A DNA stretch of 64,000 nt from Cohaesibacter marisflavi (GTDB taxonomy: Bacteria > Pseudomonadota > Alphaproteobacteria > Rhizobiales > Cohaesibacteraceae). The stretch lies in contig NZ_FOVR01000003.1 of NCBI RefSeq assembly GCF_900115225.1, forward strand, positions 312,017 through 376,016, read 5' to 3'. Shown here piece after piece: positions 42,380-56,300 of this stretch (position 1 is the first letter of the stretch; each line of letters begins with the position of its first letter). Below the pieces are notes generated by a model. The model was not told the origin of the DNA. It saw nothing but the letters and a program-made list of their open reading frames with translations, and did not search any database. Made by a program: the position numbers and the translations under genes.

Positions 42380-42405
42380 GGAACAATTCGGACACTGTCG
42401 ACGTT
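42380..42405 (+). promoter_or_regulatory. EcfG-type promoter, DUF992 gene
   Basis: GGAAC at 42380-42384 and CGTT at 42402-42405 with 17 bases between, a perfect match to the general-stress sigma factor consensus. It is 88 bases upstream of the DUF992 start codon. Confidence 0.82.
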
Positions 42406-42493
42406 GACTTGCCGAACCGGGTAGAGAGCAAACAACAACAATAAAAGCTTCTCTACCCTCGCCGATATTGCAAGGAATCTGGAGATTGATCCT

Positions 42494-42988
42494 ATGACCC
42501 GTTTTATGAAATATCTTTTCATGGCAACCCTCCCCGCGCTGGCTCTCAGTACACCAGCTGCTGCTGACACCATTGATCGTGTCGAGATTGGTCAGCTTGA
42601 TTGTGCGGTGAAAGGCGGGGAAGGATTTGTTTTCAAATCTACCAAGGATCTCTCCTGCACCTTCAAATCTGCTGAGGCTGGCGTGCCAGACGAAGCCTAT
42701 TTTGGCGCGATCAACAAATTCGGACTGGATATCGGCACCACTGATCATGGCGTGATTTCATGGCTAGTCATGGCCCCGACCACGGACGACTATCGCCCCG
42801 GCGCTCTTGCTGGTGATTATGCAGGCGTAAGTGCTCAGGCAACCGTTGGCGCCGGTGTTGGCGGGAACCTGCTTGTGGGTGGCTCTGACGAGACCATTGC
42901 CCTGCAACCGCTTAGCGTTTCCGCCCAGACAGGGTTGAACTTCGCGCTGGCTGTTAGCGAACTACAATTGCGGTCGCTGGCTGACTGA
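42494..42988 (+). CDS. DUF992 secreted protein
   Basis: A 164-residue protein with a cleavable signal peptide (about 1-24, ending STPAAA-D) and a DUF992 domain: VEIGQLDCAVKGGEGFVFKSTKDLSCTF, then GLDIGTTDHGVISWLV and the glycine-rich AGVSAQATVGAGVGGNLLVGG. Two cysteines in the first motif may form a disulfide. The family is periplasmic, alphaproteobacterial and uncharacterised. A perfect EcfG promoter upstream suggests a stress role, perhaps envelope protection. Confidence 0.88.
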   Translation: MTRFMKYLFMATLPALALSTPAAADTIDRVEIGQLDCAVKGGEGFVFKSTKDLSCTFKSAEAGVPDEAYFGAINKFGLDIGTTDHGVISWLVMAPTTDDYRPGALAGDYAGVSAQATVGAGVGGNLLVGGSDETIALQPLSVSAQTGLNFALAVSELQLRSLAD

Positions 42989-43121
42989 TCCGGCGAGCGC
43001 CCCTTGCCCGACCGTCCCCCGCGCGGTTGGGCATTTTCGGGGGCATTGATTTGACCGCGCATACAGGGGCCCAACACACAGCAGCAGGCCCTCCCGACTA
43101 GACGATACTCAGGAGTTCATT

Positions 43122-43316
43122 ATGTTTACGGGTTATGGCCTTGTTGGCCTTATCATTCTTATTCTCGATATTTATGCCGTGATCAAGGTCGTTGGAAGCC
43201 ACGAAAGCACGGGGGCCAAACTGCTCTGGATTCTCGGCATTATCATCTTCCCGTTGCTAGGCCTTATTGTCTGGTTCTTTGCCGGCCCCGGCGGTCGCAG
43301 CAGCGCCCGCCTTTGA
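43122..43316 (+). CDS. PLDc_N-like two-TM small membrane protein
   Basis: A 64-residue protein with two hydrophobic segments and the pattern of the phospholipase D N-terminal (PLDc_N) domain: LIILILDIYAVIKVVGS, then KLLWILGIIIFPLLGLIVWFFAGP. The family's stand-alone members are small envelope proteins, some linked to antimicrobial-peptide resistance. An AGGAG site precedes the ATG. Its last 60 bases overlap the 3' end of the convergent histidine kinase gene, so both stops lie inside the other gene. Confidence 0.82.
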   Translation: MFTGYGLVGLIILILDIYAVIKVVGSHESTGAKLLWILGIIIFPLLGLIVWFFAGPGGRSSARL

Positions 43317-44969
43317 CTTCGCCTTCGAGCGCCCGTTCTCAGGCAATGGCACTGTAATCTCCACGGTCAGGCCGTGCGTTTCGAACCGACGTTCGATAGT
43401 GCCGCGCAACTCACCCCGGATATTGGCATCGATCAGCTTGGTGCCAAATCCCTTATGCTCAGGAGCTGCAAGCACATTCTCGCTGCGTTCCTTCCAGGCA
43501 AGATGCAGATTTCTCACCTTCCCCTTCTGCTCAAGAGACCATGTCACACTGAGGGCGGCATTATCCTTGGCAACGTCGCTATATTTAAGTGCATTGGTTG
43601 CCAGTTCATGGAAGGTCAGCGCAAAAGCCTGCACCGTGGTTTCATCCAGCTCCACCTTCGGCCCCGAAATCGTGCCGCCGAACTGGTCTTCACCTAGCAC
43701 CTGCCTCAACTCCTTTGAGAGCAGATCAGACAAATCAGCTCGCTGCCAATGGGAGCGCGTCAGAGCATCCTGCGCGTTGGCCATGGCCTGCAAGCGTGCC
43801 GTCAGACTCTCGGAATAGTCTTCAATCGTCTCGGAGTGGTGAGCCGTCTGCCGCGCCATTGCCAGAATGCGCGCGATGGAATTCTTGATCCGGTGCTTCA
43901 TTTCCTGCAAAAGCAGATCTTTCTCTATCAGGTTCTTTTCTGACAGCTTCTGCATGGTCTTGGCTGTGCGAACAGCGCGCAGCTGGGAATGGGTGATCCA
44001 TGCCAACATCGCGGCCAGAAGGAAAAACGCGGTAAAGGACACGTAAGGGGCTGCAGTTTGCAGGGTCCAGGCGGTTTTGTTCTTGACCCGTATATCCAGC
44101 ACCCATTTGCGTCCTGCAACTTCCATAACACGGGTCACCCGCGAGCCAAATTGCTCCACATCATCATAAAGCGCAGACTTGAAGAGAGGGCGGCTCTTGT
44201 CGTCCAGATCACGTGCCTGCAACACCACGGGCAGGGTCGGTTTCTGAGAAAGTGCCGTAATGAAGAGATCCCCGGCCCTGAAGGGAGCATAAACCAGCCC
44301 TCTGGTTGGCTTTCTGCCCACCGAAGGATGGAGCCCTTCATAAGCGCCGGGCATATCGGTGTCTTCATATCGTGAATAAACAAGAAAACCAGCCTGCTTG
44401 ATCGCGGTGATCTCCTGCACCAGTTCCACTGGCCCGGAGGCAACCATGTCTCCCGTTTCATAGGCCTTCTGGATTGCGGCGCGGCGCACAGGCTCTGAAT
44501 ACATATCGTAGCCAATGGCTGCGTGGTTCCTGTCCGTCAAGGGTTCGAGCAGCGTGATCGCGGCGCGTTCGGCCTGATCCGTCTCCGGCCAGACCTTGGC
44601 ATCCGCCCCATAATCTCTCTTCAGAATAGCACCGAGAGCGTCATCCTCACTGGGAGAAATGGCTTCAGCAAAGCCGATGCCCTGAAGACCGGGATAATTG
44701 TCCTCAAGATCGAAACCGGCGATAATCTTGTCAAACTGTGTATGCCGTATGCGATTGGGCGTTGCCGCAAAGAAAGCATTGGTCGCCCTGAGCAACGCAA
44801 AATGCTGTGACAGACGCAGGGATACGCGGTCGACGACCTGTCCGGCCAGATCTTCCGCTCGCCTTTCCGTTGCCAGTTCCGCGTTGTTATAGAGCATCAG
44901 TGATGCACCAGTGCCAATGATCATGACTGTTGAAAAGACAATCGGAGCGATAAGTCGGTGCATACACAT
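43257..44969 (-). CDS. CHASE-domain sensor kinase of the HWE/HisKA_2 type, candidate PhyR kinase
   Basis: About 570 residues from ATG 44969; a TTG at 45017 is an alternative. A first TM segment (about 8-27) is followed by a periplasmic CHASE domain (about 60-270, FFAATPNRIRHTQFDKIIAGFDLEDNYPGLQGIGFAEAI split), a second TM (about 315-335), and a kinase core: EMKHRIKNSIARILAMARQTAHHSETIEDY (phospho-His about 373), HELATNALKYSD (N-box) and HKGFGTKLIDANIRGELRG. This H-box (hHRxxN) and the short ATPase domain match the kinases that phosphorylate PhyR in other alphaproteobacteria. Being next to phyR supports that role. Its 3' end overlaps the convergent PLDc_N-like gene by 60 bases. Confidence 0.85.
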   Translation of the reverse strand: MCMHRLIAPIVFSTVMIIGTGASLMLYNNAELATERRAEDLAGQVVDRVSLRLSQHFALLRATNAFFAATPNRIRHTQFDKIIAGFDLEDNYPGLQGIGFAEAISPSEDDALGAILKRDYGADAKVWPETDQAERAAITLLEPLTDRNHAAIGYDMYSEPVRRAAIQKAYETGDMVASGPVELVQEITAIKQAGFLVYSRYEDTDMPGAYEGLHPSVGRKPTRGLVYAPFRAGDLFITALSQKPTLPVVLQARDLDDKSRPLFKSALYDDVEQFGSRVTRVMEVAGRKWVLDIRVKNKTAWTLQTAAPYVSFTAFFLLAAMLAWITHSQLRAVRTAKTMQKLSEKNLIEKDLLLQEMKHRIKNSIARILAMARQTAHHSETIEDYSESLTARLQAMANAQDALTRSHWQRADLSDLLSKELRQVLGEDQFGGTISGPKVELDETTVQAFALTFHELATNALKYSDVAKDNAALSVTWSLEQKGKVRNLHLAWKERSENVLAAPEHKGFGTKLIDANIRGELRGTIERRFETHGLTVEITVPLPENGRSKAKSKAGAAATAGAGKEPDNKA

Positions 44970-45191
44970 ACCATAGTGAGTTTGAATGTTCTGAAGAACG
45001 GAATAGCGCCCTTTCAAGGCAACTTTTTGATTATAGGAAGCTTACAAAAATTTGGCAGCAGAAAAACACTTCATCCCCGAAAACAATACAGGCCAAACAA
45101 AAACCTATTAATTATGTCTTCTGAGGAAAAATTTACCTGTCGCAAAGGCTGCGCCAAGATCCGATTTCTATCTGAATCTCCTCCATTTTTC

Positions 45192-45216
45192 GGAACGTTC
45201 TCTGCCCCCACACGTT
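45192..45216 (+). promoter_or_regulatory. EcfG-type promoter, csbD gene
   Basis: GGAAC at 45192-45196 and CGTT at 45213-45216 with 16 bases between, 55 bases before the csbD start. Confidence 0.85.
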
Positions 45217-45271
45217 GATTAGGTGAGGATCGCAAAGCGATCTTACGACGAATCAAATCAGGAGAGACGCT

Positions 45272-45469
45272 ATGAACTGGAATCAGATTGAAGGCAATTG
45301 GGAACAGGTTAAAGGCAATGCGCAGGCACAGTGGGGCCGCTTGACCAATGACGATGTTGATGTGATCGCAGGCAACCGGAAAGCTTTGGCAGGCAAGCTG
45401 CAGGAGCTGTATGGCAAGCAGGAAGAGGAAGTGGAACGTGAAATCGACGAATGGATTGCGCGTCACTGA
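45272..45469 (+). CDS. CsbD family stress protein
   Basis: A 65-residue hydrophilic helical protein beginning MNWNQIEGNWEQVKGNAQAQWGRLTNDD, the hallmark of CsbD (E. coli YjbJ). The family is among the most abundant general-stress products in many bacteria; its biochemical role is unknown. A GGAGAGA site precedes the start, a perfect EcfG promoter lies upstream, and an intrinsic terminator follows, so it is a single-gene stress unit. Confidence 0.93.
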   Translation: MNWNQIEGNWEQVKGNAQAQWGRLTNDDVDVIAGNRKALAGKLQELYGKQEEEVEREIDEWIARH

Positions 45470-45499
45470 TCGCACTGACCTACCCCTATCGGGATAAAG

Positions 45500-45526
45500 C
45501 GGAGCCTTAGCGGGCTCCGTTTTTTT
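45500..45526 (+). terminator. Intrinsic terminator after csbD
   Basis: Stem CGGAGCC / GGCTCCG with a six-base loop, followed by seven Ts. It lies 30 bases after the csbD stop. Confidence 0.88.
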
Positions 45527-45598
45527 ATGTTTTTTCCGGAGGCCTCCAGACTTGAACAGGCTCATTCGTGCAGACTTTGATAAGGCGTTCCTTTGGCG

Positions 45599-45630
45599 GA
45601 ACAGTGCCACTCGTGACGAACAGTGCCACT
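45599..45630. repeat. Short direct repeat
   Basis: Two copies of GAACAGTGCCACT at 45599-45611 and 45618-45630, a 19-base period, between csbD and the DUF1328 gene. Function unknown; may be a replication-slippage duplication. Confidence 0.6.
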
Positions 45631-45635
45631 TGGCA

Positions 45636-45675
45636 AAAAGAAAAGCGACCCCGCTCTGGCAGGACCGCTTTTTTT
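45636..45675 (-). terminator. Intrinsic terminator after the DUF1328 gene
   Basis: Imperfect stem from AAAGCGACC and GGACCGCTTT; on the minus strand it is followed by a CTTTTCTTTTT run. Confidence 0.65.
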
Positions 45676-45699
45676 GAGAGATGTGTTGGCCTGTCGTCT

Positions 45700-45864
45700 C
45701 TATCGACCGCGTACCAGGTGCATCAACAGGGAGATGACGAGGAATGCCAAGAAGAGGAAGAACAAGATCTGAGCGATCCCGGCCGACGCTCCAGCAATAC
45801 CACCGAACCCAAGTACACCAGCAACAATTGCGACAATAAAGAACACCAAAGCATAATAAAGCAT
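45700..45864 (-). CDS. DUF1328 small membrane protein
   Basis: From ATG 45864, which has a GGAG site, a 54-residue protein: [22 protein letters not shown], then [28 protein letters not shown]. Two hydrophobic segments and glycine-rich turn match DUF1328 (YtjA). Upstream in-frame codons to 45921 are not part of it. A perfect EcfG promoter lies 30 bases upstream on the minus strand. The family is commonly stress- or sigma-factor-regulated; role unknown. Confidence 0.9.
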
Positions 45865-45893
45865 GTCATTTCTCCTTTGCACTACACAACTAA

Positions 45894-45919
45894 AACGATT
45901 CATGCCAAAGGTTTGTTCC
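45894..45919 (-). promoter_or_regulatory. EcfG-type promoter, DUF1328 gene
   Basis: On the minus strand GGAAC (45919-45915), 17 bases, CGTT (45897-45894). The -10 element is 30 bases from the start codon. Confidence 0.85.
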
Positions 45920-45940
45920 ATGCTCTATTAGCATTTTTTC

Positions 45941-46723
45941 TTATGATGTCCTTTCAAAGAACAGAGCCTGACTGATCAATGCCTTGACCATGTCTTCGTT
46001 GAATGGCTTGGTAACAAGGAAGGTCGGCTCGGGGCGTTCGCCCGTCAGCAGACGTTCCGGGAAAGCGGTGATGAAGATCACGGGAATATCGCTATCCTTG
46101 AGAATGTCGTTGACCGCATCAATCCCCGAAGACCCATCAGCCAACTGGATGTCTGCCAGCACCATTTTGGGCTTGTCACTGTTGTAAAGCTCGATCGCCT
46201 CGTCATAGGTCCGCGCAATGCCTGTAACCCGATGCCCTAGACTCTCGACCATTTGCTCGATGTCCATCGCAATCAGAGGTTCGTCCTCAATGATCATGAT
46301 GTCGGTCGCCACCTGCTTGGAAATGAGCTCTGATGCTTCATTGAGCAGCTCTGGCACAGTCCCTTCTTCCACACCCAGAACGACAGCGATGTCTTCAGAA
46401 GTGAATTCTTCGACAGATGCCAGCAAGAAGGCCTGACGCGGAGCCGGTGGCACATTCTGCAGGTTTGTCTGTGCGCGGCTCTCCCATCCGTAAGGGGATT
46501 TGGCGGGCGGAACTTCCACATTGGCTCTTCGATAGAGATCAGAGAACAGCTTATAGAGCGAAACGCGATCACTGCTGGCTTTCGGGAAAACGGAAACGTC
46601 AGCAATCAACGCTTCCAGAGTGGCGGCCACAAAGGCATCACCAGATGTTTGAGATCCTGTCACAGCGCGTGCGTAGCGACGAAGATAGGGAAGATGCGCG
46701 GCAACACGAGTAGAAAGCGTCAT
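45941..46723 (-). CDS. phyR: General stress response regulator PhyR
   Basis: A 260-residue protein with the PhyR layout: an N-terminal domain resembling an ECF sigma factor (1-130, ARAVTGSQTSGDAFVAATLEALIAD..., sigma-4-like QAFLLASVEEFTSEDIAVVLGVEEGTV) and a C-terminal receiver (about 137-255, IMIIEDEPLIAMDIEQMVE). The phospho-acceptor Asp is in KMVLADIQLADGSSG (about 189). The receiver ends with FITAFPERLLTGERPEPTFLVTKPF, matching the FAT GUY receiver family. When phosphorylated PhyR binds NepR and frees EcfG. Divergent from nepR-ecfG, across 163 bases. Confidence 0.96.
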   Translation of the reverse strand: MTLSTRVAAHLPYLRRYARAVTGSQTSGDAFVAATLEALIADVSVFPKASSDRVSLYKLFSDLYRRANVEVPPAKSPYGWESRAQTNLQNVPPAPRQAFLLASVEEFTSEDIAVVLGVEEGTVPELLNEASELISKQVATDIMIIEDEPLIAMDIEQMVESLGHRVTGIARTYDEAIELYNSDKPKMVLADIQLADGSSGIDAVNDILKDSDIPVIFITAFPERLLTGERPEPTFLVTKPFNEDMVKALISQALFFERTS

Positions 46724-46781
46724 CTATAATCCTCTCCTTGATAGTATCGATCGTAAAATCGAGAATGTAGTATATCGATAC

Positions 46782-46806
46782 AATCCGCCAGCAAAAAAAA
46801 AGTTCC
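46782..46806 (-). promoter_or_regulatory. Possible EcfG-type promoter, phyR
   Basis: On the minus strand a perfect GGAAC (46806-46802) followed after 16 bases by GATT (46785-46782). The -35 matches; the -10 differs from CGTT in two bases. Its -35 forms an inverted pair with the nepR -35 (GTTCC-N8-GGAAC), so the two promoters are back to back. Confidence 0.5.
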
Positions 46807-46814
46807 AACTTTGC

Positions 46815-46839
46815 GGAACTTTTTTGAAAATGGGGCGTT
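46815..46839 (+). promoter_or_regulatory. EcfG-type promoter, nepR-ecfG
   Basis: GGAAC at 46815-46819 and CGTT at 46836-46839 with 16 bases between, 47 bases before the nepR start. It gives positive autoregulation of the sigma factor. Confidence 0.9.
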
Positions 46840-46886
46840 TTTGTAGCAAGACCGAGACAATTCCTTGGCCTCTAAAGGTGTTCTAA

Positions 46887-47108
46887 ATGATAAATGATGA
46901 AAAAAAATCGGGCATTCTGAGCGCGTCCGACATGTTGGGGGGAGCCGTTCAGCCAAATGAAGAGTTGGATCCGAACGGCGCCATCGCCCAAAAGCTAAAG
47001 GCGCTATATACTCAAACCGAACAGCAAGCCATTCCGGATCGTTTTCTGGATTTGCTCGAGCAGCTGGACGAAGCCGAACGTGCTGCCAACAGCCTTGGTG
47101 AGAGGTAA
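46887..47108 (+). CDS. nepR: NepR anti-sigma factor
   Basis: A 73-residue protein with the NepR core: an acidic disordered N-terminus, then GAIAQKLKALYTQTEQQAIPDRFLDLLEQLDEAE, the two-helix segment that clamps EcfG between its sigma-2 and sigma-4 domains or binds activated PhyR. Ends nine bases before ecfG, so the pair is co-transcribed, keeping sigma and anti-sigma in balance. The start has an AAAGGTG site. Confidence 0.95.
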   Translation: MINDEKKSGILSASDMLGGAVQPNEELDPNGAIAQKLKALYTQTEQQAIPDRFLDLLEQLDEAERAANSLGER

Positions 47109-47117
47109 ACGCTCAAG

Positions 47118-47672
47118 ATGCAAAATGCTGACAACAGTTTCAAGCGCGAGATGCTCTCCGTGCTTCCTAGCTTGCGTGCCTTTGCCATGTCGCTGTGCGG
47201 CAAGCATGACCGCGCCGACGATCTGGTTCAGGATACGGTGATGAAAGCCTGGTCCAAACAGGACAGCTTCGAGGCGGGCACCAATATGCGTGCCTGGCTC
47301 TTCACCATTCTGCGCAACGAATTCTACAGCCAGATGCGCAAGAGCGGCCGTGAGATTCAGGATAGTGAAGGCACTTTCACGGAGAGCCTTTCCATTCAAC
47401 CTGCCCAACATGGACAGATGGACTTGCAGGATTTCCGCGAGGCGCTTTCCAAGCTGCCGGATAATCAGCGCGAGGCGATTGTTCTGGTGGGAGCGTCAGG
47501 CATGTCCTATGAGGAAGCCGCTGTGATCTGTGACTGCAAGGTCGGAACAATCAAAAGCCGTGTCAATCGCGCACGCGCTCACCTTCAGGAACTTTTGTCG
47601 CTGGAAGAGGACGGTAACTACCATCCGGACAATTCTGCAGCCTCAGTCGTTTCTCAGGCATTTGTGAGCTAA
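47118..47672 (+). CDS. ecfG: General stress ECF sigma factor EcfG
   Basis: A 184-residue ECF15-type sigma factor. Region 2 (about 10-80) includes LRAFAMSLCGKHDRADDLVQDTVMKAW; region 4 (about 105-165) includes LSKLPDNQREAIVLVGASGMSYEEAAVICDCKVGTIKSRVNRAR, with its helix-turn-helix. It directs RNA polymerase to GGAAC-N16/17-CGTT promoters, several of which lie in this window. Co-transcribed with nepR; followed by a strong terminator. Confidence 0.96.
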   Translation: MQNADNSFKREMLSVLPSLRAFAMSLCGKHDRADDLVQDTVMKAWSKQDSFEAGTNMRAWLFTILRNEFYSQMRKSGREIQDSEGTFTESLSIQPAQHGQMDLQDFREALSKLPDNQREAIVLVGASGMSYEEAAVICDCKVGTIKSRVNRARAHLQELLSLEEDGNYHPDNSAASVVSQAFVS

Positions 47673-47728
47673 TTCCCCATCTTCTGACGTTCAATTTTCT
47701 TTAGAACCAAATGCTACTGTCTCCATTC

Positions 47729-47766
47729 ACCCGATGTGCCTCTGCGGCACGTCGGGTTTTTCTTTT
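47729..47766 (+). terminator. Intrinsic terminator after ecfG
   Basis: 12-bp stem ACCCGATGTGCC / GGCACGTCGGGT (one T-G pair) with a five-base loop, followed by TTTTTCTTTT. Confidence 0.9.
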
Positions 47767-47892
47767 CCTGCCATCGCTATTCCCCTTGCACCCTTTCACT
47801 TCCTGTATACATGTGCTGTCGAATGTAAAGAGGTTTTGCCCTGCGCTGCTAAGGCACTCTCTACTGCGCTTTAGTGATAGGGAGCTGCGCAC

Positions 47893-47928
47893 AAAAAACC
47901 CCTCCTCATTCGAAACGAATGAGGAGGG
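47893..47928 (-). terminator. Intrinsic terminator after dps
   Basis: Perfect 13-bp stem CCCTCCTCATTCG / CGAATGAGGAGGG with an AAA loop. On the minus strand it is followed by GTTTTTT. Confidence 0.9.
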
Positions 47929-47967
47929 ATTAATATTCAAACTCAGGTCTGTAAAAGACCCGCGCGA

Positions 47968-48477
47968 TCAATCGCTGACGATCGCTCTCAGCATCCAGAG
48001 GGCTTTCTCATGGAAGGTCAGGCGTCCGGTCAGCATATCCTCGGTCACCAGGTCACCTGCATCCCCGGCCGCTTCACCAGCACGGCGCATGGTGCGCACG
48101 AGTTCTTCATGCATGGCGATCAGGTCTTCCACCATGTCCTGCGCCTTGAGATCTTTCACGTCGCCGCGCTCGGGCATGAAGTTGCCAAAATTGGCTCCTT
48201 TGACAGGCGCAAGGGCATCGAGTGCACGAATACGCTCGGCAATTTCGTCGGCAGCCGCAAACAGGTCGTTATAATGCTCTTCTGTCAGCTCATGTAGCGA
48301 TTTGAAAAGCGGACCGACGACGTTCCAGTGGTAAATATGACTTACCACGGTAAGCTTGTAGGTCGCCCCCAGAATATCTGACAGGGCTTCTGCCATGTCT
48401 TTACGATAGGTTTCATCCAGGCCGTTGTTAATTCCGGCTTCTCCTGGAGCGGTTTGCAATACAGCTTGTACAGTCAT
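47968..48477 (-). CDS. dps: DNA protection during starvation protein (Dps)
   Basis: A 169-residue ferritin-like protein that oxidises and stores iron in 12-mers and shields DNA under stress. Ferroxidase-site residues are seen in VVSHIYHWNVVGPLFKSLHELTEEHYNDLFAAADEIAERI (about 48-87), including the HW/H, D and E positions. The C-terminus FHEKALWMLRAIV is typical. It lies within the stress island, but I did not find an EcfG promoter upstream, so it may be under iron, peroxide or another control. Confidence 0.93.
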   Translation of the reverse strand: MTVQAVLQTAPGEAGINNGLDETYRKDMAEALSDILGATYKLTVVSHIYHWNVVGPLFKSLHELTEEHYNDLFAAADEIAERIRALDALAPVKGANFGNFMPERGDVKDLKAQDMVEDLIAMHEELVRTMRRAGEAAGDAGDLVTEDMLTGRLTFHEKALWMLRAIVSD

Positions 48478-48585
48478 AATGAAGAGTCCTTTCTAAAATC
48501 GTTTCGTCAATAGGGCACACTGTCAGGCTGGCGTACCCGCTCAACGGGCATCCAGTCGCTCATATTCATGACGCAGAGCGCCCTA

Positions 48586-49005
48586 TTATTCTGATGAGCG
48601 CTCGCGCGTGACGTAGCCTGCAGCCGTAATGCCGGCCCCGAGTGCCATCATCAGCAACGGAGAAGCACTTACGATCTGAAAGACAGCCTGGACCGTTGCC
48701 AGATCGGAGCTGGATGCAGCTCGTGCTGCCGCCCTGATCCGCGCTCGACGCTTGCGGCGGCGCGCAAGCAAGTAGAGCACCAGTGCACTGAACAGAAATG
48801 CCAGAGCAGCCAGAATGATCGACGCCTCCAAGGCGCCAAGATAGCGCTCAAGCACGATGAACAGTGCCAGCAACCCGAAGCCTGCGCCAATGAGGCCGGC
48901 GAGGAAGGCTGCAAAAATCAGCAGCCCGTCCTCAGCCCCCCCTTTAAGCTCTCGCTTTATGCCGGGGCCAGCCAGATCGGCCAATATGGAGACCAGAGCG
49001 CCCAT
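48586..49005 (-). CDS. Phage-holin-like (YqjE/DUF1469 type) membrane protein
   Basis: A 139-residue protein with two central hydrophobic segments (about 28-50 and 58-82), a strongly basic stretch after them (RRRKRRARIRAAARA) and a third segment near the C-terminus (about 112-130). The N-terminal amphipathic part plus two-TM hairpin matches the YqjE-type family annotated as putative holins; these are usually not phage proteins. It lies three bases after the DUF883-like gene, the usual YqjD-YqjE pairing. Confidence 0.75.
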   Translation of the reverse strand: MGALVSILADLAGPGIKRELKGGAEDGLLIFAAFLAGLIGAGFGLLALFIVLERYLGALEASIILAALAFLFSALVLYLLARRRKRRARIRAAARAASSSDLATVQAVFQIVSASPLLMMALGAGITAAGYVTRERSSE

Positions 49006-49008
49006 GGG

Positions 49009-49329
49009 TTATTTACGAACCATCAAGGCAGCCAGGAAGCCGACACCAGCGGCCAGACCAACTGCGGCCAGCGGCTTTTTACGAATTTCAAGCATCATGC
49101 GTGCTTCAGCGCGGCCAGCGTCATCGTTAAGGTCGGTCAGCTTTTCCTGTGCCTTTTCTACGGCGGTTTTTGCTGCGCCTCGGGCACGATCCTGCAAATT
49201 GATCACATCTTCAGAACCGCGTTTGGCTAGCAGTTCCGTAATGCTTGCGATGTCGCTGCGAAGCTCTTCAATCTGCTTGTTCAGGTCAGCATCTTTGGTG
49301 GATTCGCTTTTGTTGTTGGCAACAGCCAT
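49009..49329 (-). CDS. ElaB/YqjD/DUF883-like membrane-anchored protein
   Basis: From ATG 49329, which has an AGGAG site, a 106-residue protein: long charged helix (KDADLNKQIEELRSDIASITELLAKRG...KTAVEKAQEKLTDL) and a C-terminal hydrophobic anchor (KPLAAVGLAAGVGFLAALMVRK). E. coli relatives are stationary-phase, inner-membrane proteins that bind ribosomes. Upstream in-frame codons to 49377 are not needed. First gene of a two-gene unit with the holin-like protein. Confidence 0.85.
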   Translation of the reverse strand: MAVANNKSESTKDADLNKQIEELRSDIASITELLAKRGSEDVINLQDRARGAAKTAVEKAQEKLTDLNDDAGRAEARMMLEIRKKPLAAVGLAAGVGFLAALMVRK

Positions 49330-49435: not shown

Positions 49436-49460
49436 GGAACCATTCGACATTCCATGCGTT
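49436..49460 (+). promoter_or_regulatory. EcfG-type promoter, HWE kinase gene
   Basis: GGAAC at 49436-49440 and CGTT at 49457-49460 with 16 bases between. The start codon is 150 bases further on, leaving a leader of about 140 bases. Confidence 0.82.
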
Positions 49461-49610: not shown

Positions 49611-51092
49611 ATGATCGATTTGAATTTCATGCACAAAGAGTTGCTTGCGTTGGTGCAGGATGAAGGACGCCTGAAAGCTGTTGAACAGATTTGCGGCCTG
49701 GGCATTCTGCCGGACTCGGATTTTAATACCCTCATAGACATGATCAGAGCCCAGACCGGGGCCGATACCGCCTTCATCGCAGTGGTGAAAAACGGAGAAG
49801 TGCTGTATCAAGCCTGTTCATGTGATGAAACCCCACGCACCGATGTGACGGATGCGGTTTCCATTTCATGTCTCATTGAGCGGGATCATTGGTCTCTTTC
49901 TCCCCTACCGCCCGTATTAAAGCAAAGAGACTATCATGGCCGTGTTTGGGGTATTCCCATTATGGTCTCAGATCATGCAATCGGCAGCCTTTGCCTGATG
50001 GACGCGACCGACCGCACCGCCGTGTGGGCCGCCAGAAATGATGATCTGCTGGAGCGCTCTGCCCAATTGATTGCCTCCATGTTTGAATTGAAGCAGTCGG
50101 CACGGGCGCGCAGCATGTCCGAATTTGACCTGTCACGCGCCAATGTTCGCTATGCCCTGGCTCTTAAGGCCGGTCAGGTGGCAACCTGGAGCTGGGATCA
50201 AGATGAACAGATCATCGAATGCGACCCTTTGATGCGTCAGTTGCTGGGTCTTCAGGATGTCGGCACCGTGACCGGATCGCGCCTGTTTCGCCAGATAGAT
50301 CCAGACGACCTGACCCGCATCAAGTATGAAGTCTCCACTATGGTTGCCTCTGACGAGGATGTCAGTGTCGAGTTCCGCGCCCGCAGTACGGGGAGATATG
50401 TGCTCGCTCTGGGGCATGTGTTCGAACGGGATAATGAAGGCAAGCCCAAAAAGATCCTCGGCGTGGCCATCGACCTCACAGAAAGCAAACGCAGCGAAGA
50501 CAAGACGCGCCTGTTGCTGCGCGAGGTCAACCACAGAGTGAAGAATATGCTGGCCATTCTGCAGTCTCTTGCTAGCCAGACCTTGCGCCATTCCCAATCA
50601 CCAGAGCGTTTCACACGTGCCTTTTCGGGGCGGTTGGCAGCCCTTGCCACCTCTCATGGTCTGCTTTCGGATCAGGAATGGGAAGACATTGATCTGGTGA
50701 GCCTTATCCAGACACAGGTCAAACCCTATGCCAGCCACTATGCAGAGCAGGTGACCATTGAGGCCGAGCCCATCGCCATCAATGCCGATGCAGCCATTGC
50801 CCTAGGGCTGGTTATCCATGAGCTTGCCACCAATGCGATGCAATATGGTGCACTCTCCCAGCGAGTGGGGCGTCTCGAGATTTCGATTACCGCCTCCCCC
50901 GCCATACATGGTCAGAAAATGTTGTCGATCCTATGGAAAGAGACCGGGGGCCCGGCGCTCAGTGAGGAAAGACGCAAAGGCTTTGGCTCAATTCTGATCG
51001 AGCATAGCCTGAACAAAATTATTGGTAGCAATGTGCATATAGATTACGAGAAATCCGGCATTATCGCCAAAATCGATATGCCCACCCAATAA
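49611..51092 (+). CDS. Soluble GAF-PAS-HWE histidine kinase
   Basis: A 493-residue cytosolic protein without membrane segments: GAF domain (about 20-155), PAS domain (about 180-290, ATWSWDQDEQIIECDPLMRQLLGL), and an HWE kinase core with LLREVNHRVKNMLAILQSLASQTLRHS (phospho-His about 310), VIHELATNAMQYGALS (N-box) and ILWKETGGP (the W-x-E of the family). This type phosphorylates PhyR-like or single-domain regulators. It carries its own perfect EcfG promoter, giving feedback in the stress circuit. Confidence 0.9.
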   Translation: MIDLNFMHKELLALVQDEGRLKAVEQICGLGILPDSDFNTLIDMIRAQTGADTAFIAVVKNGEVLYQACSCDETPRTDVTDAVSISCLIERDHWSLSPLPPVLKQRDYHGRVWGIPIMVSDHAIGSLCLMDATDRTAVWAARNDDLLERSAQLIASMFELKQSARARSMSEFDLSRANVRYALALKAGQVATWSWDQDEQIIECDPLMRQLLGLQDVGTVTGSRLFRQIDPDDLTRIKYEVSTMVASDEDVSVEFRARSTGRYVLALGHVFERDNEGKPKKILGVAIDLTESKRSEDKTRLLLREVNHRVKNMLAILQSLASQTLRHSQSPERFTRAFSGRLAALATSHGLLSDQEWEDIDLVSLIQTQVKPYASHYAEQVTIEAEPIAINADAAIALGLVIHELATNAMQYGALSQRVGRLEISITASPAIHGQKMLSILWKETGGPALSEERRKGFGSILIEHSLNKIIGSNVHIDYEKSGIIAKIDMPTQ

Positions 51093-51130
51093 TTCTCTGG
51101 TTGCAGAATTCTTATTTTTATAAAAAATCC

Positions 51131-51155
51131 GGAACAAACCTAATTCCCACTCGTT
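51131..51155 (+). promoter_or_regulatory. EcfG-type promoter, PRC-barrel gene
   Basis: GGAAC at 51131-51135 and CGTT at 51152-51155 with 16 bases between, 91 bases before the start codon. Confidence 0.88.
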
Positions 51156-51246
51156 TTACTCCTGCAAGCAGAAAGGATACACCGTTTATTCTTTAATGAA
51201 CATAGTATCCTTTCAACTAACGAGAAAATTTACGAGGAGAGGAATT

Positions 51247-52119
51247 ATGAATTACAAGTTTATTGCTACGACTGCTTTGGTTGCTCTTATGTCTACTGGC
51301 GCCGTTGCCATGGACAATTCAAACAAGACCTCCCAGATGAATGACTCCAAGGCGCAGACCGAAATGAATGCGCAGTCTGAACAGTCCGGTGAAGAGCTGG
51401 TGCCACGCGCTACTATGGAATTCAGCATCTTTGCGAAAGATGTGTCCGCCGACGCCACTATGAGTGAAGACGGCTATCTGTCTGCCAAGCCCGGCCAGAT
51501 CCTTGCCAGCGGCCTGATGGGCAAAACCATCTACTCCTCGGTCAAGGATGTGGACGGCGTGCGCACCATTATCGGTGACATCAACGATATCGTACTGGAC
51601 AAGAACGGTTCTGTTGAAGCTGCCGTCGTCGGCGTTGGTGGCTTTGTCGGTCTCGGTGAAAAAGATGTCGCCGTTGACTTCAGCCGCCTGCAATGGATGA
51701 CGTGGGATAATGAGCGCCATCTGGTCATGGCCTCTACCAAGGCCGAGCTGGAAGCTGCGCCAGAGTTTAGCCGTGATGGCGTGACTACCCTGGCCAATGC
51801 AGACATGCTGGTGATCGATCAGAACAAGCTGAGCACCGATCAGTTGATTGGCACCTCTGTTTATGGTGAAGAGCTGAACGAGATCGGTGAAGTCGGTGAC
51901 GTCATCCTTGATAACAACGAGCGGGTTGAAGCCTATATCGTTGACGTAGGCGGCTTCCTTGGCATCAACGCCAAGCCAGTTGAACTGGAAGCAGACAAGC
52001 TGAATGTTTATGCTGATGCACAGGGTGCCCTGCATGTTTATACCCCATTCACTCAGGCACAGCTCGAAAGCATGCCGGCTTATGAAGCTGAAGACGAGCA
52101 GATCAGTTGGCTGAAATAA
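51247..52119 (+). CDS. Exported protein with two PRC-barrel domains
   Basis: From ATG 51247 (AGGAGAGG site) a 290-residue protein: signal peptide (about 1-21, ending GAVA-M), a Ser/Asn/Gln-rich linker, and two PRC-barrel units at about 90-165 (GKTIYSSVKDVDGVRTIIGDINDIVLDKNG...AVVGVGGFVGLGEKDVAV) and 195-270 (GTSVYGEELNEIGEVGDVILDNNERVEAYIVDVGGFLGINAKPVEL). Secreted tandem PRC-barrel proteins are common in Rhizobiales and stress-induced; molecular role unknown. Perfect EcfG promoter upstream. Confidence 0.9.
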   Translation: MNYKFIATTALVALMSTGAVAMDNSNKTSQMNDSKAQTEMNAQSEQSGEELVPRATMEFSIFAKDVSADATMSEDGYLSAKPGQILASGLMGKTIYSSVKDVDGVRTIIGDINDIVLDKNGSVEAAVVGVGGFVGLGEKDVAVDFSRLQWMTWDNERHLVMASTKAELEAAPEFSRDGVTTLANADMLVIDQNKLSTDQLIGTSVYGEELNEIGEVGDVILDNNERVEAYIVDVGGFLGINAKPVELEADKLNVYADAQGALHVYTPFTQAQLESMPAYEAEDEQISWLK

Positions 52120-52236
52120 CGCCTCTAGGAAACGAAAAAAAGCAAGGGCAAGGCGCTGAAATAAAACCAATAAGAATTATCGCCACCCTCTAATCGCATC
52201 AGGATCTGACTGGTTCGCGTGATGTGACAGATATGA

Positions 52237-52274
52237 AAGAAGGCACCGTCCATCCTCCCGGGCGGTGCCTTCTT
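52237..52274. terminator. Bidirectional intrinsic terminator
   Basis: Stem AAGAAGGCACCG / CGGTGCCTTCTT, extended inward by GTCC/GGGC-type pairs. It lies between the convergent PRC-barrel and aldo/keto reductase genes, with T-rich flanks on both strands. Confidence 0.82.
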
Positions 52275-52307
52275 GTTGTTTCATTCTGCGGATATACCAT
52301 CAAATCT

Positions 52308-53261
52308 TCAGAGGCCGGCCTTTGTCAGGTTGTCCATTTCATCTTGTGTCAAATCGAGCTCAACAGCCTTCACGAAGCTTTCAATCTGGGAAAAGCTGGT
52401 TGCGCTGGCAATCGGCGCGGTTATCCCATCGCTTCTGATGATCCAAGCCAGAGCAACTTCGGCCTGTTTGGCATCATGGTTTGCAGCTACTTCGTCCAGC
52501 ACATTGAGCACATGCACGCCCTTTTCATTGTAGAAGCGCTTGGCCATCTCGCCCCGTTTCGGGCCTCTAAAATCTTCTTCCGTGCGGTATTTGCCCGTCA
52601 GGAAGCCCGATGCGAGACTGAAATAGGTGATGACGCCAATGGACTTCTCAACGCAGAAATCCTTGAGCGGGGCCGGGAATTTCTCACGGGAATTGAGATT
52701 GAATTCCGGCTGTAGCACCTGATAGAAGGGCAGCCCTTCCTTTTGCGATGCTGCGAGCGCCCCCGTCATCAGCTCCAAATCATAGTTGGAGGCACCAATG
52801 GTGCGGATCTTTCCGGCTTTCAGAAGCTTGTCATAGGCACCCAATGTTTCCGAATGGGAAGCATCCGGATCAGGCCAATGGGAGAAATAGAGGTCGATAT
52901 AGTCTACACCAAGCCGGGAAAGGGAGTCATCAACGGCCTTGAGGATCCATTCTTCCTTCAGCCCCTTGTGGCCGGGGATCCCCATATCGGAACCAACCTT
53001 GGTGAACAGCTTGACCTTGTCGCGCATCCCCGGGCGCGCCTTGAACCATTTACCCAGAATGGTCTCGGATTCACCTCCCTTGTTGCCCTCGGCCCAGCGC
53101 GAATAGGCATCAGCCGTATCGATTGCATCAAAGCCATGGTCAATAAAGGCATCAAGAATACGGAAGCTCTCCTGCTCATCGAGCGTCCAGCCAAAGACAT
53201 TGCCGCCGAAGACAATCGGGGCGATGTCAAAACCGGTTTTACCGAGTGCTTTCTTTTCCAT
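52308..53261 (-). CDS. Aldo/keto reductase
   Basis: From ATG 53261 (AAGGAGA site) a 317-residue NADPH-dependent oxidoreductase. The catalytic tetrad is present: D and Y in DAIDTADAYSRWAEGN, K in VKLFTKVGSD and H in IDLYFSHWPDPDAS. The C-terminal AWIIRSDGITAPIASATSFSQIESFVKA binds the cofactor. It resembles YajO/Tas-type reductases; substrate unknown, perhaps reactive aldehydes. Upstream in-frame codons to 53339 are not needed. I see no EcfG promoter for it. Confidence 0.9.
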   Translation of the reverse strand: MEKKALGKTGFDIAPIVFGGNVFGWTLDEQESFRILDAFIDHGFDAIDTADAYSRWAEGNKGGESETILGKWFKARPGMRDKVKLFTKVGSDMGIPGHKGLKEEWILKAVDDSLSRLGVDYIDLYFSHWPDPDASHSETLGAYDKLLKAGKIRTIGASNYDLELMTGALAASQKEGLPFYQVLQPEFNLNSREKFPAPLKDFCVEKSIGVITYFSLASGFLTGKYRTEEDFRGPKRGEMAKRFYNEKGVHVLNVLDEVAANHDAKQAEVALAWIIRSDGITAPIASATSFSQIESFVKAVELDLTQDEMDNLTKAGL

Positions 53262-53721
53262 CTGATCAGGTCTCCTTTCAAGATATCCGGGCGAGCAGGC
53301 TGGTCCCCCAATCACGGAGCTTATCACGGCTCCGATCAAGAAAGCGGAGACCTACTCGCCCATGTTCATATGCTATTGTGAGAGCCGAAGACCTTTCAAA
53401 CAAGGGTGCGTAAAATGGAAATGGGTGGCAAACCCTTCTTCTGCACTGAAAAACTCTCTGCGCTGAAAACCGGCAACCATGGCCGAACAGTCCGTTCCCT
53501 GCCCGGCGCTAGATGCACGAAAATCTCCAAGGAACTTTCATAAAATTCGCACGTTGAATTCATGTAGGGCGAGCGCTGCCTTTCCATAGACAGGCGCTCC
53601 TCAAAGCTTAAAGCTGCGCCTGCCTTCCGGCTCTGCATCTTGCCTCATAAAGGCCAATAGGATCGCTTGCAGCGATCTGCTTCTTCCAGGCACGCAGCAT
53701 ATCTTATTGAGAGGATAAAAC
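53262..53721. other. Divergent intergenic region with a stress promoter
   Basis: About 460 bases between the aldo/keto reductase (minus) and the glucose dehydrogenase operon (plus). It contains the EcfG promoter at 53531. A minus-strand frame at 53396-53638 has no ribosome site or family resemblance. Confidence 0.5.
53531..53555 (+). promoter_or_regulatory. EcfG-type promoter, PQQ dehydrogenase operon
   Basis: GGAAC at 53531-53535 and CGTT at 53552-53555 with 16 bases between, 166 bases before the first start codon. Confidence 0.82.
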
Positions 53722-54120
53722 ATGAAGATTCTACCCGATCGATATTCTTCGGGGCCTTTGCTGCTTGTGGTGAGCGCGGCCGCAGGGTTAGCTATCACGC
53801 TTTATCACTATATGGCCCCCCTTACGGGCGTAACAGAGACCATCGGTGCCGGACTGGTCGTCTTTTCGACCGGTATCATGCTGGTCGCCGCCCTCATCCA
53901 TCCCATTCTGCCCTCCGGCGTCATGCGCAAAACTGTGATGTTCCTCATTCTGGTCGATGCCGTCTGCACCATGGCTGCGGGCTATTTCCTGCATGAGTGG
54001 TTGTTGATGGTCGCCATGGCTATTGCCCTCATTGGCGCTGTGATAAGCGCCTTTACCGGCTCGGCAACTGGCGGCGGCAAATCCGCGTCCAGCCAGAAAA
54101 CACAGGGAGCAACAGCATGA
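53722..54120 (+). CDS. Four-TM membrane protein coupled to the PQQ dehydrogenase
   Basis: A 132-residue protein with four hydrophobic segments (about 12-32, 41-62, 72-90, 94-112) and a polar C-terminal tail. Its stop overlaps the dehydrogenase start by four bases (ATGA), implying coupled translation. Membrane glucose dehydrogenases (Gcd) normally carry a membrane-spanning region of about this size at their N-terminus; here the enzyme has a signal peptide instead, so this protein may be the separate anchor or quinone-docking partner. That is inference. Confidence 0.7.
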   Translation: MKILPDRYSSGPLLLVVSAAAGLAITLYHYMAPLTGVTETIGAGLVVFSTGIMLVAALIHPILPSGVMRKTVMFLILVDAVCTMAAGYFLHEWLLMVAMAIALIGAVISAFTGSATGGGKSASSQKTQGATA

Positions 54121-56300
54121 AAACTTTCACACGAATTTTATTAAGCAGCGCCCTTTGCTTCTCCATGACCAACACGCTGGCATTGGCGCAGGAAAATAGC
54201 GAGGCCGATGCCCCGGCAAGCACCGCTGATGTCACCTTGCCTGAAGCCCAGGCCGAGACACCGGGCACGGCGGAAGGTGGCAATGGGGCGCGCCCCACAG
54301 ATACCGATGGAATGGCCCAAGGCCCAGCCCCCGATGGCGAAGACGAGACCGGGGGCTATGTTGCGCCTGCCCCCGTTCAGGATGTCGATGACAGTATCGT
54401 GGCACCCATTCTCAACACCACTCCTCGCCAACGCAAGGGCATTCCGCTGGTGCCACAACAGGCGACGTGGAACAGCTTCCATGGCCAGTTGAATGCCCAG
54501 AAATATGCGCCGCTTGACCAGATCAATAAGGACAATGTGAGCGAACTCGAAAAGGTCTGGGAAGTCCATACCGGAGACGTATCAGACGGCAGTGGCGACA
54601 CGCCCGCAACCGTATGGTCTGCAACGCCGGTGTTTGCCAATGATACGCTTTATATCGGCACGCCCTTCTATCGTATTCTGGCACTTGATCCGGCAACGGG
54701 TGAACAGAAATGGGTATTCGACACCAAGTCCAGGCTGGAAGCTCTGACGCAGCCAGCGCTCAAGAACCGCGGCGTTGCCTATTGGGAAGCTGACAATCCG
54801 GTTGCCGGTGAACCTTGCCAGAAGATCGTCTATATCGGCACCATGGATGCGCGCCTGTTTGCAGTCGACGCGGATAGTGGTGAAGCCTGCGAGGCTTTCG
54901 GGGACAATGGCGCACTGGACGTGAACCAGTGGAACACGCGCCCGGACCGCTTCCCGCTTTCGCTGTTGCAGCCACCCACTGTTACCGGCAACCATTTGAT
55001 CATGGGCTGGGCCGGTTCGGACTGGGAATATTCCGAAGCCCCTCCAGGAGCCGTCTTCTCGGTAGATCCTCAGACCGGCGATTTGCAGTGGGCCTTTGAC
55101 ACCATTCCGGAAAATATCCGCCGTCAGACAGGCACGGCCAATGTCTGGACTGCGATGTCCGTGGATGAGGATCTGGGGCTTGTCTATCTGCCGATTGCCT
55201 CGCCATCTCCCAACTATTGGGGCGGCAACCGCAAACAGCAGATCCCATATGCCACGTCCACCACGGCTCTCGATCTGGAAACCGGCGAAGTTGTCTGGTC
55301 GCGCCAGTGGGTCCATCATGACATCTGGGACTATGATATCAACTCCGCGCCAACCCTGATGGACATCACGGTTGACGGCAAAGACATCCCGGCTCTCGTT
55401 CAGGGTACCAAGATGGGCTTCCTGTTCGTGGTCAACCGCGAGACGGGTGAAGATGTCTGGCCAATCGAAGAGCGTCCGGTGCCACAGGGCGATGGCACGA
55501 TTGACGGCGAAGTCTATGCCGCGACCCAGCCCTTCCCGACCAAACCGGCTCCTCTGCTGGACCAGTCGAAAAAGCCGGAAATCTGGAAGATTGCCGATAT
55601 CGTCGGCGGAGGGTCTTGCTCGGCGCTGTTTGACAAGCTCAGCTATGAGGGCATGTATACCCCGCCAACCACCAAGGGCGAAGGCGTCCTAACCTATCCG
55701 GACAGCGCCGGTGGCGTTCAATGGGGCGGCGTGGCCTTTGATCCAGAAAGCCAGACGGCTATCGTCAACACCTCTCATATCGTGCAATATATCAAGCTGT
55801 TTGCGCGTGAAGACTATGACAAGATCAATGATGGCTCTGGCAACGAGAACGGATTCTATCCGCAGGAAGGCGCCCCGTATGGCATGAGCTTGATGAATGC
55901 CATGAACTGGTTGGGCATGCCATGTTGGAAACCGCCGTTCGGTGAACTGGTCGCGCTCGACATGCATACCGGTGATGTCAAATGGCGCAGACCAATCGGG
56001 GAATCCCAGCGGTATGGCTTTTTCATGCCAGAAAGCATGGGCTCTCCCACCATCGGCGGCCCCGCTGTCACCAAGGGCGGATTGGTCTTTATTGGCGCAA
56101 CCATGGATGCCAAGGCCCGCGCCTATGACCTCAGCACAGGTGAAGTCCTCTGGTCCGATCAGCTTGAGGCACCCGTTGTGGCCAACCCTGCTGTCTATGA
56201 GTATCAGGGCAAGCAGTATGTCGCCTTTATATCGGGCGGTAACTCGATCCTGAAACCAACGGTGGGTGATCAGATCGCAGTCTATGCCCTGCCGAATTGA
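54117..56300 (+). CDS. PQQ-dependent glucose dehydrogenase-type quinoprotein
   Basis: From ATG 54117 a 727-residue protein: signal peptide (about 1-25, ending ALA-QE), an acidic, Pro-rich linker (about 26-110), and an eight-bladed propeller typical of the Gcd/quinate dehydrogenase type. Motifs in order: YAPLDQINKDNVSELEKVWEVHTGD, TLYIGTPFYRILALDPATGEQKW, YLPIASPSPNYWGGNR, WVHHDIWDYDINSAPTLMDI, GMYTPPTTKGE, and the C-terminal EYQGKQYVAFISGG...VGDQIAVYALP. It oxidises an aldose or polyol in the periplasm and passes electrons to ubiquinone. Exact substrate is not certain. No PQQ synthesis genes are in the window. Perfect EcfG promoter upstream. Confidence 0.88.
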   Translation: MKTFTRILLSSALCFSMTNTLALAQENSEADAPASTADVTLPEAQAETPGTAEGGNGARPTDTDGMAQGPAPDGEDETGGYVAPAPVQDVDDSIVAPILNTTPRQRKGIPLVPQQATWNSFHGQLNAQKYAPLDQINKDNVSELEKVWEVHTGDVSDGSGDTPATVWSATPVFANDTLYIGTPFYRILALDPATGEQKWVFDTKSRLEALTQPALKNRGVAYWEADNPVAGEPCQKIVYIGTMDARLFAVDADSGEACEAFGDNGALDVNQWNTRPDRFPLSLLQPPTVTGNHLIMGWAGSDWEYSEAPPGAVFSVDPQTGDLQWAFDTIPENIRRQTGTANVWTAMSVDEDLGLVYLPIASPSPNYWGGNRKQQIPYATSTTALDLETGEVVWSRQWVHHDIWDYDINSAPTLMDITVDGKDIPALVQGTKMGFLFVVNRETGEDVWPIEERPVPQGDGTIDGEVYAATQPFPTKPAPLLDQSKKPEIWKIADIVGGGSCSALFDKLSYEGMYTPPTTKGEGVLTYPDSAGGVQWGGVAFDPESQTAIVNTSHIVQYIKLFAREDYDKINDGSGNENGFYPQEGAPYGMSLMNAMNWLGMPCWKPPFGELVALDMHTGDVKWRRPIGESQRYGFFMPESMGSPTIGGPAVTKGGLVFIGATMDAKARAYDLSTGEVLWSDQLEAPVVANPAVYEYQGKQYVAFISGGNSILKPTVGDQIAVYALPN

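Follow-up and report, generated by a model that had tools for sequence, protein, structure and literature searches.

How does it come about that seven promoter-like sites of one type lie within 11.2 kb of a bacterial genome, and do the genes behind them belong together? The question is raised by a stretch of 64 kb from Cohaesibacter marisflavi (GCF_900115225.1, contig NZ_FOVR01000003.1), hereafter the window, where a preliminary description had proposed an island of general stress response (GSR) genes at 42380..56300, with its own sigma factor, EcfG, and promoters of the consensus GGAAC-N16/17-CGTT. We read it as a canonical single GSR locus with a cluster of target genes and an adjoining glucosylglycerol operon, and give this reading a probability of roughly 0.88. 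The stress response also appears to be inherited and lost as a block.

The exact motif was searched on both strands of the window and of the whole source genome (G000, 5.34 Mb in 41 contigs). The window contains exactly 7 matches, at the positions and on the strands reported before, all within 42380-53555 and none in the remaining 52 kb; 100 dinucleotide shuffles of the window gave a mean of 0.60 matches and a maximum of 3. All 7 are directed at a gene start and lie 29 to 166 bases ahead of it, in agreement with the 30 to 170 bases first described: 88 bp for DUF992, 55 bp for csbD, 29 bp for DUF1328 (ATG at 45864), 47 bp for nepR-ecfG, 150 bp for the HWE kinase, 166 bp for the 132-aa membrane open reading frame (ORF) ahead of the pyrroloquinoline quinone (PQQ) dehydrogenase, and 91 bp for the PRC-barrel gene when counted to the ATG at 51247 (40 bp to 51196). 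Two weaker sites also exist as described, one with a single mismatch (CATT) at the DUF883-like gene and one with two mismatches (GATT) at phyR. The sites, all from the motif scan, and the genes to which they belong are the following.

42380..42405, plus strand: exact EcfG-type promoter (N17) of the DUF992 gene
42494..42988, plus strand: DUF992 protein (PF06186), probably secreted, judging from its N-terminus
45192..45216, plus strand: exact EcfG-type promoter (N16) of csbD
45272..45469, plus strand: CsbD-like stress protein (PF05532)
45700..45864, minus strand: DUF1328 small membrane protein of 54 aa (PF07043)
45894..45919, minus strand: exact EcfG-type promoter (N17) of the DUF1328 gene
45941..46723, minus strand: phyR, anti-anti-sigma response regulator, single copy (PF22029/PF22233/PF00072; NF006623 above cut-off)
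46815..46839, plus strand: exact EcfG-type promoter (N16) of nepR-ecfG
46887..47108, plus strand: nepR, anti-sigma factor, single copy (PF18557)
47118..47672, plus strand: ecfG, general-stress sigma factor of the extracytoplasmic function (ECF) type (Pfam sigma70 r2/r4)
49009..49329, minus strand: DUF883-like glycine-zipper protein (Pfam match below cut-off)
49376..49401, minus strand: one-mismatch EcfG-type promoter (-10 box CATT) of the DUF883-like gene
49436..49460, plus strand: exact EcfG-type promoter (N16) of the HWE kinase gene
49611..51092, plus strand: PAS-domain HWE histidine kinase, HRVKN, H at residue 308 (PF07536)
51131..51155, plus strand: exact EcfG-type promoter (N16) of the PRC-barrel gene
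51196..52119, plus strand: PRC-barrel protein, likely start 51247 (PF05239)
53531..53555, plus strand: exact EcfG-type promoter (N16) of the PQQ dehydrogenase operon
53722..54120, plus strand: 132-aa membrane protein, ATGA overlap with the next gene (from the sequence; no family matched)
54117..56300, plus strand: PQQ-dependent dehydrogenase (PF01011; TIGR03074 below cut-off)

In the whole source genome, 88 exact matches were found, 61 of them intragenic and 27 outside genes, with 22 lying at, or at most 250 bp upstream of, a correctly oriented gene start. Seven of these 22 are packed into the 11.2 kb of the island. The 81 matches elsewhere lead to 0.17 expected per 11.2 kb (Poisson P(>=7) = 7e-10). 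With the nepR site taken as given, 6 of the remaining 21 upstream sites fall within 7 kb of it (binomial P = 2e-11), or 6 of all 87 other exact sites (P = 1.4e-7). The scan had been named in advance as the one that could refute the island, and the density elsewhere turned out far lower. Considering the shuffles, the scan and these tests together, a chance origin of the sites was rejected, and EcfG-type promoters, a sigma factor of the locus itself and a real clustering are all supported. The sorting used gene calls from our own uncurated script, and a site also counted as upstream when it fell within the first 60 bases of a gene on its own strand (the DUF1328 start had been called too early). 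Upstream sites that overlap a called start number 5 of 22 in G000, including that of DUF1328, 2 of 15 in the congener G011 and 2 of 5 in the congener G014. The PQQ-operon site was added by hand, its 132-aa ORF being uncalled, which gives 22 instead of 21 in G000 and likewise 15 instead of 14 in G011, and the gene of 76 aa behind the site on L049 is a doubtful call. Outside the island, the upstream sites of G000 precede genes for an outer-membrane beta-barrel protein, a second PRC-barrel protein, a Crp-type regulator, flavin mononucleotide (FMN) reductase, MdoG and a sugar ABC permease, among others.

The only PhyR, NepR and EcfG of the genome all sit in the island, with NepR found in 1 copy and the PhyR_sigma2 model matching PhyR and the island EcfG only; 4 weaker ECF sigma factor matches are found besides EcfG. 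PhyR contains the sigma-like N-terminus and the receiver domain. The nepR gene lies directly ahead of ecfG, with phyR on the opposite strand in a divergent arrangement, and the exact consensus at 46815 is a sequence sign of autoregulation. Two HWE/HisKA2 kinases are found nearby (PF07536), both with an HRXXN box (HRIKN and HRVKN). The gene names proposed earlier agree with Pfam, except for the DUF883-like match, which stays below the cut-off. Twelve genus relatives possess EcfG, with 83-98% identity to that of the window in 11 of them and 73% in the other one, and the nearest named ecfG loci are those of Cohaesibacter haloalkalitolerans (94% EcfG identity) and C. celericrescens (72%).

From what is established for these families, the following course may be proposed. 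Under stress, an HWE kinase would phosphorylate PhyR, PhyR-P would bind NepR, and EcfG would be freed and read GGAAC-N16/17-CGTT promoters, among them that of the nepR-ecfG operon itself and that of one kinase gene, in a positive feedback. Its targets would be the DUF992, CsbD, DUF1328, DUF883-like and PRC-barrel proteins, the PQQ dehydrogenase operon and, more weakly, glucosylglycerol synthesis. The accessible part of a review gives the general scheme, in which the kinase phosphorylates PhyR, PhyR-P binds NepR, and the released EcfG transcribes the regulon and its own operon (PMC8103513). The steps that would be specific to this locus are the feedback via the PAS kinase, the osmolyte output and a weaker feedback on phyR. 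We infer partner switching, phosphotransfer, EcfG-dependent transcription and the gene functions from the families concerned.

As far as the available portions of the papers describe them, the PhyR-NepR-EcfG loci (ECF15) of Rhizobium etli (ecfG1), Sinorhizobium meliloti (rpoE2) and Sphingopyxis granuli (ecfG1/ecfG2) share with our locus the divergent phyR / nepR-ecfG, the GGAAC-N16-CGTT promoters, an HWE kinase nearby, and csbD and PRC-barrel targets (PMC3892343, PMC7083833, PMC6180224, PMC8103513). The same portions report that R. etli EcfG1 uses GGAAC-N16-CGTT (PMC3892343) and, in the review, that GSR promoters drive both phyR and nepR-ecfG (PMC8103513). The Cohaesibacter locus differs from those systems in having one copy per regulator, two HWE kinases of which one has an exact EcfG site, an exact nepR-ecfG site with a degenerate phyR site, and the adjoining glucosylglycerol operon. 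The R. etli small RNA ReC64 is, in the accessible text, an EcfG target of the conserved ecfG1-phyR region, downstream on the phyR side (PMC3892343), whereas the window has the DUF1328 protein gene downstream of phyR. An Rfam search of 41-62 kb gave no family at gathering score.

Are the sites maintained? Upstream regions of orthologous genes were compared in 12 Cohaesibacter loci, with a background in shuffled 260-bp stretches of 0.00075 for exact sites and 0.047 within one mismatch. The OtsA row, in which the upstream region extended past the end of the locus, was discarded as an artefact. Exact sites at the 7 island positions are kept in 75-100% of these regions, against 0.075% of the shuffled stretches. 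The PRC-barrel site is exact in 12/12, the csbD site in 11/11, the DUF1328 site in 11/12, the PQQ operon site in 6/6 of the loci having the gene, and the DUF992 site in 9/11 of those having it (11/11 within one mismatch). The PAS kinase site is exact in 9/12, with 3 mismatches in the remaining 3, and the DUF883-like site is exact in 0/12 and within one mismatch in 12/12. No site within one mismatch was found in genus loci for the CHASE kinase (0/12), Dps (0/11) or the holin-like, aldo/keto reductase and SRAP genes, nor for the PLDc_N gene in 11/12, its site being exact in one. Outside the genus, exact sites were found in 12/17 loci for csbD, 52/56 of the loci having the gene for DUF1328, 63/72 for DUF883-like proteins, which are distant there, 4/10 for PRC-barrel, 22/71 for PAS-type HWE kinases, often paralogues, 2/7 for Dps and 0/69 for CHASE-type kinases.

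The clustering had been considered stronger than in the usual scattered regulon. This is not borne out, since similar clusters recur at the phyR-nepR-ecfG loci of related families, and for such a locus the clustering is unexceptional. In 80 loci around ecfG, none longer than 20.6 kb and 78 belonging to other genera (Devosia, Rhizobium, Neorhizobium, Phyllobacterium, Martelella and others), the exact motif occurs 352 times and the reversed motif 25 times (4.4 vs 0.31 per locus); the loci are not independent, several genera contributing many of them. Among the 68 full-length loci from outside the genus, the excess sets in some 3 kb ahead of the ecfG start, declines over the 10 kb that follow this start and still exceeds the control at 9-10 kb after it, where the loci end. 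Within the genus, 12 loci of 20 kb contain 78 sites and 8 adjoining 20-kb stretches from four genomes contain 5, one of which lies ahead of the glucosylglycerol operon of G006.

The two promoters of the switch itself are unequal. In the phyR-nepR intergenic region (46724-46886), the two -35 boxes lie close together and the promoters face apart. The phyR site of G000 has an intact -35 box and 2 mismatches in the -10 box (GATT), so that the consensus is not reached. In the 12 distinct Cohaesibacter genomes (the 14 loci compared include two genomes twice, L112 = G007 and L113 = G015), the nepR site is exact in 12/12, and the phyR site is exact in 1, has one mismatch in 2 and two mismatches in 9 (3/12 within one mismatch). 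Outside the genus, where L147 and L205 are one genome, the phyR site is exact in 59/82 loci and the nepR site in 7/80; 55 of 80 loci combine an exact phyR site with an inexact nepR site (one mismatch in 44, two in 11) and only 5 of 80 show the reverse. The asymmetry is thus inverted in Cohaesibacter with respect to most loci outside it. In the examples displayed, the weaker promoter of the pair reads CATT, GATT, AATT or AGTT at its -10 box. For Sphingopyxis the accessible text describes a -10 box less constant than the -35 box (PMC7083833). We suggest that the -10 box may set the strength and that the asymmetry may act on the feedback, offering a simple sequence handle on its direction and strength.

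Downstream of the PQQ dehydrogenase, past the end first given to the island, lies an operon on the minus strand.

56771..58327, minus strand: glucosylglycerol-phosphate synthase (TIGR02398 equivalog, 664.6 bits, cut-off 569)
58381..59169, minus strand: HAD-IIB phosphatase, probable glucosylglycerol-phosphate phosphatase (PF05116; TIGR01484 above cut-off; substrate judged from the neighbours)
59215..60537, minus strand: NAD(P)H-dependent glycerol-3-phosphate dehydrogenase (PF01210/PF07479; NF000942 above cut-off)
60697..60721, minus strand: one-mismatch EcfG-type promoter (GAAAC-N16-CGTT) of the glucosylglycerol operon (motif scan)

GgpS and GgpP constitute the glucosylglycerol synthesis pathway. 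As in that pathway, the synthase passes the NCBIfam equivalog cut-off, and the phosphatase and the glycerol-3-phosphate dehydrogenase adjoin; unlike it, the operon here lies next to the general stress regulator and has an EcfG-like promoter. Trehalose-phosphate synthase (OtsA) was rejected as an identity for the GT20 gene at 56771-58327, which scores 416 with the OtsA model TIGR02400 (cut-off 564.85). In 5/5 genomes examined, the window included, a site within one mismatch precedes the aligned reading frame by 60-176 bases; one locus offers only 134 bases upstream, and the site is exact in G006. The operon is likely a weaker target of EcfG. In a literature search that covered few subscription papers, no paper was found with both 'glucosylglycerol' and 'EcfG', nor one with both Cohaesibacter and 'general stress response'.

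Whether these genes belong together can be judged from relatives that lack the switch. NepR is present in 13 of the 18 genus genomes, and the other 5 are also without PhyR and a close EcfG. Their completeness is 64% for G005, 90 for G009, 99 for G010, 99 for G014 (one contig) and 94 for G017. A fused query of the five satellite proteins (DUF992, CsbD, DUF1328, DUF883-like and PRC; E<=0.001) found none of them in 5/5 NepR-less genomes and all five in 3/3 GSR-bearing controls; the search uses a candidate filter that distant relatives may escape, and the absence in G005 means little. The glucosylglycerol synthase has no match in the five NepR-less genomes, nor in G018, from a sister genus. In G014 the gap itself can be seen.

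42290..61178, no strand: segment absent from G014 between conserved flanks (DNA alignment; from 42279 by genes)

G014 is a single contig of 5.03 Mb. It is colinear with the window up to the gap, where 18.9 kb are missing, and again beyond it: the DNA alignment stops at 42289 and restarts at 61179. From there on the genes of one flank match the window (tartronate semialdehyde reductase, 94%), and the other flank contains SRAP (82%), an MFS transporter and a chemotaxis receptor. The place of the island is filled by 1327 bp with a glycerate 2-kinase (MOFRL) gene (L210:8698-9957), which adjoins the tartronate semialdehyde reductase gene. Absence from the whole G014 genome was searched for NepR, PhyR/EcfG, the five satellite proteins and the glucosylglycerol synthase; for all other genes of the block, such as both kinases, PQQ dehydrogenase, aldo/keto reductase and Dps, it refers to the colinear region only. 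In G010, G009, G017 and G005, the compared stretches are not colinear with the window past the MFS gene, and absence alone is shown there. The extent 42380..56300 was thus too narrow, the missing block reaching about 61.2 kb and including the glucosylglycerol operon. The further proposal that the island is a functional unit stands for co-inheritance, given the block absent from G014 and the satellites not found in all five NepR-less genomes; a function of proximity beyond that is hypothetical.

A tree of four proteins groups G014 with G000, G002, G003, G011 and G013 (97.8/94). Because G001, G004 and G007, outside that clade, carry the island beside the same SRAP gene, we read the gap as a probable loss in the G014 lineage, by deletion or by recombination replacement. 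All genes of this tree come from the region of the window, with G010 and G009 represented by two and G018 by one; it replaced a tree of MutL with a distant outgroup, in which 6 of the 12 inner branches stayed open.

With the sigma factor gone, its distant sites might be expected to decay. Four of the 15 non-island target genes of G000 were located in the compared G014 stretches, and none of the 4 has an exact site: the -10 box is TGTT at the outer-membrane protein gene, both boxes are altered at the HAD hydrolase gene, the GG of the -35 box is lost at the ABC permease gene, and nothing recognisable remains at the FMN reductase gene. In G011, which bears the GSR at a similar MutL distance, 3 of the same 4 genes have exact sites. 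By sequence match only, G002 has an identical 25- or 26-base site for three of the four genes and one base changed for the fourth. In whole genomes, upstream sites amount to 22/88 in G000, 15/78 in G011 and 5/51 in G014 (Fisher p for G014 is 0.04 against G000, 0.21 against G011 and 0.07 against the two pooled), and sites outside genes to 27/88, 22/78 and 6/51 (p 0.013 against G000 and 0.03 against G011).

A first alternative is that this is an ordinary GSR locus whose neighbours became targets by happenstance, with G014 representing one chance deletion favoured by proximity and no selection acting on the cluster. One event would suffice for G014, where the single clean empty site was seen, the compared stretches of G006, G008, G012, G015 and G016 being without the flanks of the window. 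However, the five satellite proteins were not found in the other four NepR-less genomes either, the cluster persists in five genomes having other flanks, and loci outside the genus again have DUF1328, DUF883-like and csbD genes next to ecfG, each with an exact site. We consider this alternative doubtful, although it deserves to be taken seriously. A horizontally acquired, mobile genomic island would agree with a block that is present or absent whole and with flanks that differ between species. However, no integrase or transposase was found among the scanned genes (41.5-60.5 kb) and no tRNA within the window, the G+C of the island (0.51-0.58) is not atypical, falling inside the range of the window (0.49-0.60), and the core and its satellites recur in related families; a mobile element was therefore rejected as very improbable. 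That the sites are read mainly by a different ECF sigma factor, or are not promoters, is the least probable reading of all: the weaker ECF matches of the genome could supply such a factor, and in the accessible text the ECF26-type RpoE6 of S. meliloti overlaps the RpoE2 regulon (PMC6180224), but weaker ECF matches remain in G014, where none of the four retained targets is exact, and the consensus is identical to the published EcfG motif, as the available part of that paper gives it (PMC3892343).

Several points weigh against the canonical, co-inherited GSR locus that we prefer. EcfG-dependent transcription is drawn from the family and not from RNA. The degenerate phyR site departs from the usual pattern, and it does not exclude the reading, since an EcfG promoter of phyR is usual and not defining, being found 'most often', not always, according to the accessible text (PMC4814048). 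Regulon membership is unproved for the CHASE kinase, the aldo/keto reductase, the PLDc_N protein and Dps, none of which has its own EcfG site within one mismatch in G000. The genome-wide decay in G014 is modest and its test weak, the trend being in line with decay; the HAD hydrolase site is also missing in G011, and the FMN reductase was judged from its first 45 codons in G014. The position of G014 relative to G011 is poorly supported in the tree (6.8/45). Finally, G010 has kept a diverged EcfG-like sigma factor (G010:C7:190678-191130; 35% identity, 1.8e-23) without NepR or PhyR, with 49 bits in the PhyR_sigma2 model, above cut-off and near the 51-57 of EcfG itself; it may be a non-canonical EcfG working without NepR.

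For the GSR locus as a block, we lean towards selection acting on it as a unit. A wider proposal is offered tentatively, with slightly less than even confidence: the switch, sigma factor, sensors, core targets and osmolyte pathway would be kept and lost together, the promoters of distant targets would then decay, and the divergent promoters of the switch would be held unequal, the strong one depending on the lineage (that of nepR-ecfG in Cohaesibacter, that of phyR in most loci of other genera). If true, the change of the strong promoter between lineages would shift the feedback from mainly the anti-anti-sigma factor to mainly sigma and anti-sigma factors. Close species with and without the GSR would provide a natural knock-out series for an alphaproteobacterial master regulon, one that would allow tests of which genes depend on EcfG, how quickly promoters decay after the loss of the sigma factor, and what a marine bacterium forfeits when it loses the response. 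In the available portions of the regulon, motif and core-locus literature (PMC6599016, PMC8103513, PMC3892343, PMC7083833, PMC3616915, PMC6180224, PMC4814048), which includes few subscription papers, the clustering of targets, the block loss and the promoter asymmetry are not described.

The remaining genes of the island are the following.

43122..43316, plus strand: small PLDc_N-type membrane protein (PF13396)
43257..44963, minus strand: CHASE-domain HWE histidine kinase, HRIKN, H at residue 357 (PF03924, PF07536)
47968..48477, minus strand: Dps/ferritin-like protein (PF00210)
48586..49005, minus strand: holin-X-like membrane protein (Pfam match below cut-off)
52308..53339, minus strand: aldo/keto reductase (PF00248)

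The Dps gene may be reached by read-through from the promoter of the DUF883-like gene. At 53722-56300, the PQQ dehydrogenase and the separate 132-aa membrane protein look like a membrane-bound dehydrogenase split in two. Elsewhere in G000, contig 24 contains a second small group of exact sites (L033:6798-12149), located at genes for a PRC-barrel protein and a Crp-type regulator, and similar sites with matching spacing are listed for G002. At L012:1501-1527, overlapping sites on both strands form an intragenic palindrome, and such pairs are also listed for G002, G014 and G015.

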